The translations under genes were made by a program, and so were the position numbers. Positions 4,252-5,129 of a stretch of DNA of 5,129 nt are shown here, one piece after another. Within the stretch, counting starts at the first letter, position 1; every line of letters starts with the position of its first letter. The stretch lies in NCBI GenBank assembly GCA_035528375.1, contig DATKYS010000108.1:1-5129 (forward strand), read 5' to 3'. Below the pieces are notes generated by a model. That model did not search any database. It worked only from the letters and a program-made list of their open reading frames with translations, and had not been told where the DNA came from. The stretch comes from a bacterium (GTDB lineage Bacteria; RBG-13-66-14).

Positions 4252-4632
4252 CTACCCGGTCCTCTCGGCGAGCTCGTCCTCGGTGAAGGCCGCCTCGTCA
4301 TCTTCGGCGTCGAAGGCAAGATAGGCGCGCCGGGCGAATTTCTCCGGCTCCCGGCGCATGGCGGACCGTTGGTGGAGCTGAAGGAAGAATACCACCGCCG
4401 ATACCGCGCATCCCACGGCCATAACCCCCAGGGCCCACCCCGCCCCGATTTCCTCCGGCACACCGGCGAGGACCGCCGCCGCCGCTCCGAAGAGAACGGT
4501 CAACCCGAAAGATAAAAGCAGCGGGAAACGGTTCAGCCTCCGCAGCCGCTCCGCGGTATAAGAAACCTCCACGGGCCGGAGGTCGTACTGGCCCGGTTTG
4601 TCGGGAACCGGTAGCCCCACCCAGAGCCGCAT
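4252..4632 (-). CDS. Small two-helix membrane protein, function unknown
   Basis: A 126-residue protein with no recognised family. Residues 1-35 are polar and basic towards the end (AERLRRLNR). Two hydrophobic helices follow at about 37-57 (LLLSFGLTVLFGAAAAVLAG) and 64-85 (GWALGVMAVGCAVSAVVFFLQL). Next comes a basic segment (88-103, RSAMRREPEKFARR) and a clearly acidic tail (108-124). The basic residues flanking both helices suggest that both ends face the cytoplasm. It lies 5 bases after the ancestral stop of the YugP-like peptidase gene, whose TAG forms part of the weak Shine-Dalgarno (TAGGA), and 2 bases before the next membrane protein. A link to the peptidase is suggested only by position. 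Confidence 0.75.
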   Translation of the reverse strand: MRLWVGLPVPDKPGQYDLRPVEVSYTAERLRRLNRFPLLLSFGLTVLFGAAAAVLAGVPEEIGAGWALGVMAVGCAVSAVVFFLQLHQRSAMRREPEKFARRAYLAFDAEDDEAAFTEDELAERTG

Positions 4633-4637
4633 TTTTC

Positions 4638-4754
4638 CTACCGCCGGTTGAAGGCGCCGGCGATTAAAAGAAGGCGCAGTAGAATCAACAGGCTGGACAC
4701 CAGGGCGGCAACGTAGGTCAGCGCCGCGGCGGAGAGAATCTTCCGCGCCCCGAT
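4638..4754 (-). pseudogene. Detached C-terminal tail of the YugP-like peptidase, beyond an in-frame TAG
   Basis: After the TAG at 4757-4755 the same frame stays open for 38 codons to a second TAG (4640-4638). The text GARKILSAAALTYVAAL, followed by a hydrophobic stretch and AFNRR, is what one expects for the closing membrane helix of YugP-type peptidases, which usually continue from the 'PVEFNAS' region through 'GA+KVL.AAALTYVAA' to the end. The codons look under coding constraint and no start codon with a ribosome site precedes the segment, so it is not an independent gene. It is either a lost tail (recent nonsense mutation), a read-through product, or the result of a base error in the sequence. 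Confidence 0.85.
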
Positions 4755-5129
4755 CTACTCCTCGGGCTCTAGGTAATTTCCGTCGCTCAGGATGGCCAGG
4801 GCCCGCGAGCTGGCGTTGAATTCCACCGGCAGCGTTATGAGCTGGAACAACAAGAGGAGCGTGAAGCAGCCGATGCCGACCCAGACCAGCGGCTCCAAGG
4901 CGAAGATGAGCCCGGCGATGAAGAGCGGCAGGTATAGCCAGGAGCCGATTCTCGTCGCGGGAACGGCGGCGTTGCGCAGGTGGAGCGGGAAGTAGCCGCT
5001 AGAGTGCTGGATGGCGTGTCCAACCTCGTGGGCCGCCACCCCCAGCGCGGCCACGGAGGGCGAATGGGCCACGTCGGCGGAAAGGTACAGCTTCCGCGTC
5101 CGCGGGTCGTAGTGGTCCGACAGCCGACC
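4755..5129 (-). CDS. YugP-like membrane zinc metallopeptidase (Zn_peptidase_2 type), 5' part outside window, interrupted by in-frame TAG
   Basis: The frame is open from the right edge and gives 124 residues of a YugP-type putative membrane peptidase. Visible in order: LSDHYDPRTRKLYLS at the edge, the catalytic zinc motif HEVGH (visible residues 34-38) in ALGVAAHEVGHAIQH, the family stretch YFPLHLRNAAVP, two adjacent hydrophobic helices (about 61-78 and 81-100), and the conserved PVEFNASSRAL (101-111) whose E103 may be the third zinc ligand. The GTG at 5072 is internal, because family sequence continues upstream of it to the window edge. The frame ends at TAG (4757-4755), but matching family sequence continues in the same frame for 38 more residues, so the protein made would lack the last membrane helix. 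It heads the minus-strand run with two small membrane proteins and dtd. Activity and substrates of the family are poorly known. Confidence 0.9.
   Translation of the reverse strand, partial: GRLSDHYDPRTRKLYLSADVAHSPSVAALGVAAHEVGHAIQHSSGYFPLHLRNAAVPATRIGSWLYLPLFIAGLIFALEPLVWVGIGCFTLLLLFQLITLPVEFNASSRALAILSDGNYLEPEE

Follow-up and report, generated by a model that had tools for sequence, protein, structure and literature searches.

Introduction

YugP (Zn_peptidase_2; PF04298), a putative metalloprotease of the membrane, occurs in Bacillus and in many other bacteria. The family is listed as M65 in MEROPS (PMC3890501), and in Bacillus the protein is described as a putative metalloprotease of the inner spore membrane (PMC13393411). 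An in-frame stop codon in a gene of such a family may be read in several ways, and in draft genomes the reading also depends on the assembly, given that metagenome assemblies are known to have trouble in telling close strains apart (PMC9889960). Here, we analyse a YugP-like gene with an internal TAG at the end of a draft contig and compare it with the family, with the other contigs of the same assembly and with related genomes.

Results

The window, that is, the whole stretch of DNA analysed, is the entire contig C108 of assembly G000 (5129 bases). Its right end cuts a YugP-like gene (PF04298) on the minus strand, on the N-terminal side. Re-read from position 5129, the frame runs to ...DGNYLEPEE, meets a TAG at 4757-4755, continues with IGARKILSAAALTYVAALVSSLLILLRLLLIAGAFNRR and ends at a second TAG at 4640-4638; no frameshift occurs along the way and the letters are as an earlier note on this DNA had described them. 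The motifs that it reported as intact, HEVGH and PVEFNAS, are both present. The PF04298 match spans the stop (profile positions 60-217, with 1 TAG inside), and the 38 residues past it are undecayed, being identical in a second copy described below and conserved in relatives. The identification of these residues as the YugP C-terminus is thus borne out, and the alternative that the tail is mere downstream sequence is ruled out, because the tail lies within PF04298 and is conserved in relatives. The features of this end of the window are:

4573..5129, no strand: end-to-end overlap of C108 with C60, 97.1% identical to the first 557 bases of C60, gap-free
4573..4709, no strand: identical left flank of 137 bases, at the start of C60
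4710..4995, no strand: overlap core, to which the 16 mismatches are confined, 7 falling within 4757-4787
4996..5129, no strand: identical right flank of 134 bases, at the end of C108
4638..4754, minus strand: conserved YugP C-terminal tail, 38 residues and the final TAG, with one synonymous difference from C60
4755..4757, minus strand: in-frame TAG, where the C60 version has CAG (Gln)
4758..5129, minus strand: part of the YugP-like zinc peptidase before the TAG, the N-terminal side being lost at the contig end

The assembly contains two PF04298 matches, the second of which (C60:87-734) is free of stops. It belongs to an open reading frame on the minus strand of contig C60 (C60:66-770) that encodes a complete YugP protein of 234 amino acids (...GYLEPEEQIGARKILSAAALTYVAAL...), with glutamine, encoded by CAG, at the TAG site. 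The earlier note had held that a sense codon in the raw reads, for example CAG, would mark the TAG as an error; such a codon is indeed found, in the assembly's second version rather than in raw reads. The C60 version matches PF04298 with 282 bits over profile positions 1-217 of 218; it and the window version (217 bits) both pass the curated cut-off of 27 bits, and in both the HExxH zinc-binding motif reads HEVGH; PVEFNAS, too, is present in the C60 version. Judged by these signatures, this is an ordinary YugP protein and a putative peptidase; a sequence search for a solved structure found none.

What the window alone could not show is that it spans a contig from end to end and that it overlaps, at one of these ends, a second contig on which the gene is intact. 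When contig ends were compared by individual searches, C108:4573-5129 aligned with C60:1-557 in the same orientation and without gaps, 541 of the 557 bases being identical (97.1%); the overlap opens with base 1 of C60 and closes with the final base of C108. All 16 mismatches fall between the identical flanks of 137 and 134 bases, an arrangement with a chance of about 5e-6 under random placement. Searches of the assembly found no third copy of the overlap and no second copy of the 273 bases that precede it. The far end of C60 was also searched for a contig join and none was found, only a dispersed, diverged repeat (C60:4810-4946, L019), of which about 50 partial copies, 71-96% identical, occur genome-wide.

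The intact version bears directly on how the TAG is to be read. A recent event, readthrough and a wrong base had been listed as its possible origins, which was a fair list. Functional readthrough or recoding of UAG, by a suppressor tRNA or as pyrrolysine, would fit a frame that is open and conserved past the TAG, but this reading is extremely improbable: the C60 version simply has CAG, no CUA anticodon occurs among the 46 tRNA genes (Rfam tRNA model, then ARAGORN; the draft assembly is rated 100% complete), and PylS gives no match above its curated cut-off (19.9 bits vs 178.15), a match also being obtained in 13 of 14 control genomes. The search for an amber suppressor tRNA or a pyl cassette, suggested in the earlier note, therefore points away from its readthrough option, and amber suppression and pyrrolysine were both rejected on these two results. 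In addition, TAG is the stop of six other genes in the window: sorA, the second ferritin, the second DUF1858 gene, the lipoprotein, the zinc-ribbon protein and a small protein at 4252-4632. At least five had been counted before, with the view that whole-genome reassignment of UAG is unlikely; the six lead us to reject it. A tRNA-Sec gene (UCA anticodon) is present at G000:C36:5510-5602 (L169) and concerns UGA, not UAG; the organism therefore probably makes selenoproteins, some of its UGA codons standing for selenocysteine.

In related genomes, the codon at the TAG site is a sense codon in 13 of 13 aligned relatives, CAG in the congeners G001 and G002 and other sense codons elsewhere. The tail is common to all 13: each protein goes on into it, and the possibility that relatives end at EPEE, which was to be checked, does not hold. 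Across a sample of the phylum, the YugP family occurs in 13 of 14 genomes, with the end of C108 as the only match that contains a stop; a wider scan of contigs returned distant relatives only, at most 57% identical. On one contig of G001, sequence like C108 3723-5124, the YugP gene and sequences like C60 1-837 and 1127-3914 follow each other in this order, and G002 agrees, with C108-like and C60-like flanks around a single YugP gene. Taken together, the overlap and the synteny in these two congeners suggest that C108 and C60 are chromosome neighbours and that the overlap is one piece assembled in two versions. Two PF04298 matches in one assembly could also mean a true second, truncated paralogue or a tandem duplicate elsewhere in the chromosome. 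This is most unlikely, since each copy occupies the very end of its contig, the two ends facing each other and the common sequence running from the first base of C60 to the last base of C108, and since relatives carry a single gene, at one site, between the two flanks; a true paralogue was rejected on these grounds.

If one locus was assembled twice, the TAG version could come from a real haplotype or from base errors. Polarised against three congeners, the 16 differences are window-derived at 8 sites, C60-derived at 4 and ambiguous at 4. The balance tips somewhat from base error towards a real minority haplotype, because each version has changes of its own and because at four sites it is the window, not C60, that retains the base of the congeners. 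It is slightly better than an even bet that a co-existing strain truly carries the nonsense allele, its YugP gene being a young pseudogene. An excess of synonymous changes (9 of 16, 5.5 expected, P 0.045) points the same way, but it is weak and disappears in the TAG-bearing part, 4710-4850 (6 of 10, 4.6 expected, P 0.28). A less probable source of the TAG is base error at a contig end with thin coverage, although this would account for the crowding of 7 of the 16 differences inside 31 bases (P 0.0006), for the uniform direction of the 10 differences in 4710-4850, each of which pairs a G/C in C60 with an A/T in the window, and for several differences at positions that are invariant in relatives. 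Against errors, 134 identical bases separate the core from the contig end, which places them away from the end itself, and assemblers usually require more than one read per k-mer. The stop as such does not discriminate: a nonsense change among 16 such random changes has a probability of 0.29, no surprise either way. The derived sites lie in separate halves of the core, those of the window in 4710-4850 and those of C60 mostly in 4896-4995, a pattern that might reflect recombination tracts between strains.

Elsewhere in the window, positions 1-140 hold a repeat of about 140 bases that is also found at the starts of contigs C123, C107 and C37, at the end of C47 and inside C92. An open frame at 2-124, at the contig start (VYHGGFKRNFHLFIREMEFRFNHRN...), is presumably the end of an IS1595-type transposase. 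Positions 165-2517 encode two ferritin-like proteins, a desulfoferrodoxin-type superoxide reductase and two adjacent DUF1858-like small CxxC proteins, both DUF1858-like assignments being below the Pfam cut-off; this region is likely an oxygen- or iron-stress cluster.

Discussion

The TAG is very probably no constant trait of the gene: one locus appears to have been assembled in two versions, contig C108 ending in one and contig C60 opening with the other. We propose that the assembly broke at this chromosomal locus, leaving the two contigs with about 135 identical bases in common to the left and to the right of the mismatched core, which is what an unresolved bubble in the assembly graph would give. 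The C60 version would then be the one with the sense codon and a complete YugP, like all relatives examined, and the C108 version the one in which a TAG stands among 16 differences; it may stem from a nonsense mutation in a minority haplotype (somewhat likelier) or from base errors at the contig end (less likely). Either way, the rest of the genome largely accounts for the TAG.

It follows that the split gene does not characterise the genome; it belongs to a variant or to a faulty contig end, and the assembly also contains the gene intact. The earlier note's split gene is thereby reduced to at most one haplotype or a contig-end fault, and its suggestion that a shortened enzyme might still work has lost its basis. 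That a co-existing strain with the amber version and an undecayed tail makes a YugP that works, truncated or read through, which would amount to a natural intact/amber polymorphism within the population, is very doubtful. The case serves mainly as a caution: before an in-frame stop near the end of a draft contig is interpreted, the sequence ought to be checked against all other contig ends in that assembly. In this genome, the check yields a sense codon, and neither recoding nor a split gene is left with a case.

How does the locus compare with what has been described? As a YugP protein, the C60 version resembles the family throughout, whereas the C108 version differs from it by the internal TAG and by the N-terminal part that is missing because of the contig end. 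As an assembly structure, the overlap looks like what a bubble would leave in a k-mer graph whose k is close to 140: at the repeat, the start of C108 likewise shares exact overlaps of 137-140 bases with the starts of C123, C107 and C37, while the slightly unequal flanks (137 vs 134) count against it. The likeness to strain-variant bubbles in metagenome assembly graphs lies in near-identical versions between common flanks, with the contigs broken there: (i), a near-identical second version stands at the facing end of another contig; (ii), the differences lie between identical flanks of similar length; (iii), in relatives (G001, G002) one locus carries the flanks of both contigs. In the present case, the bubble is diagnosed from contig overlap and synteny alone.
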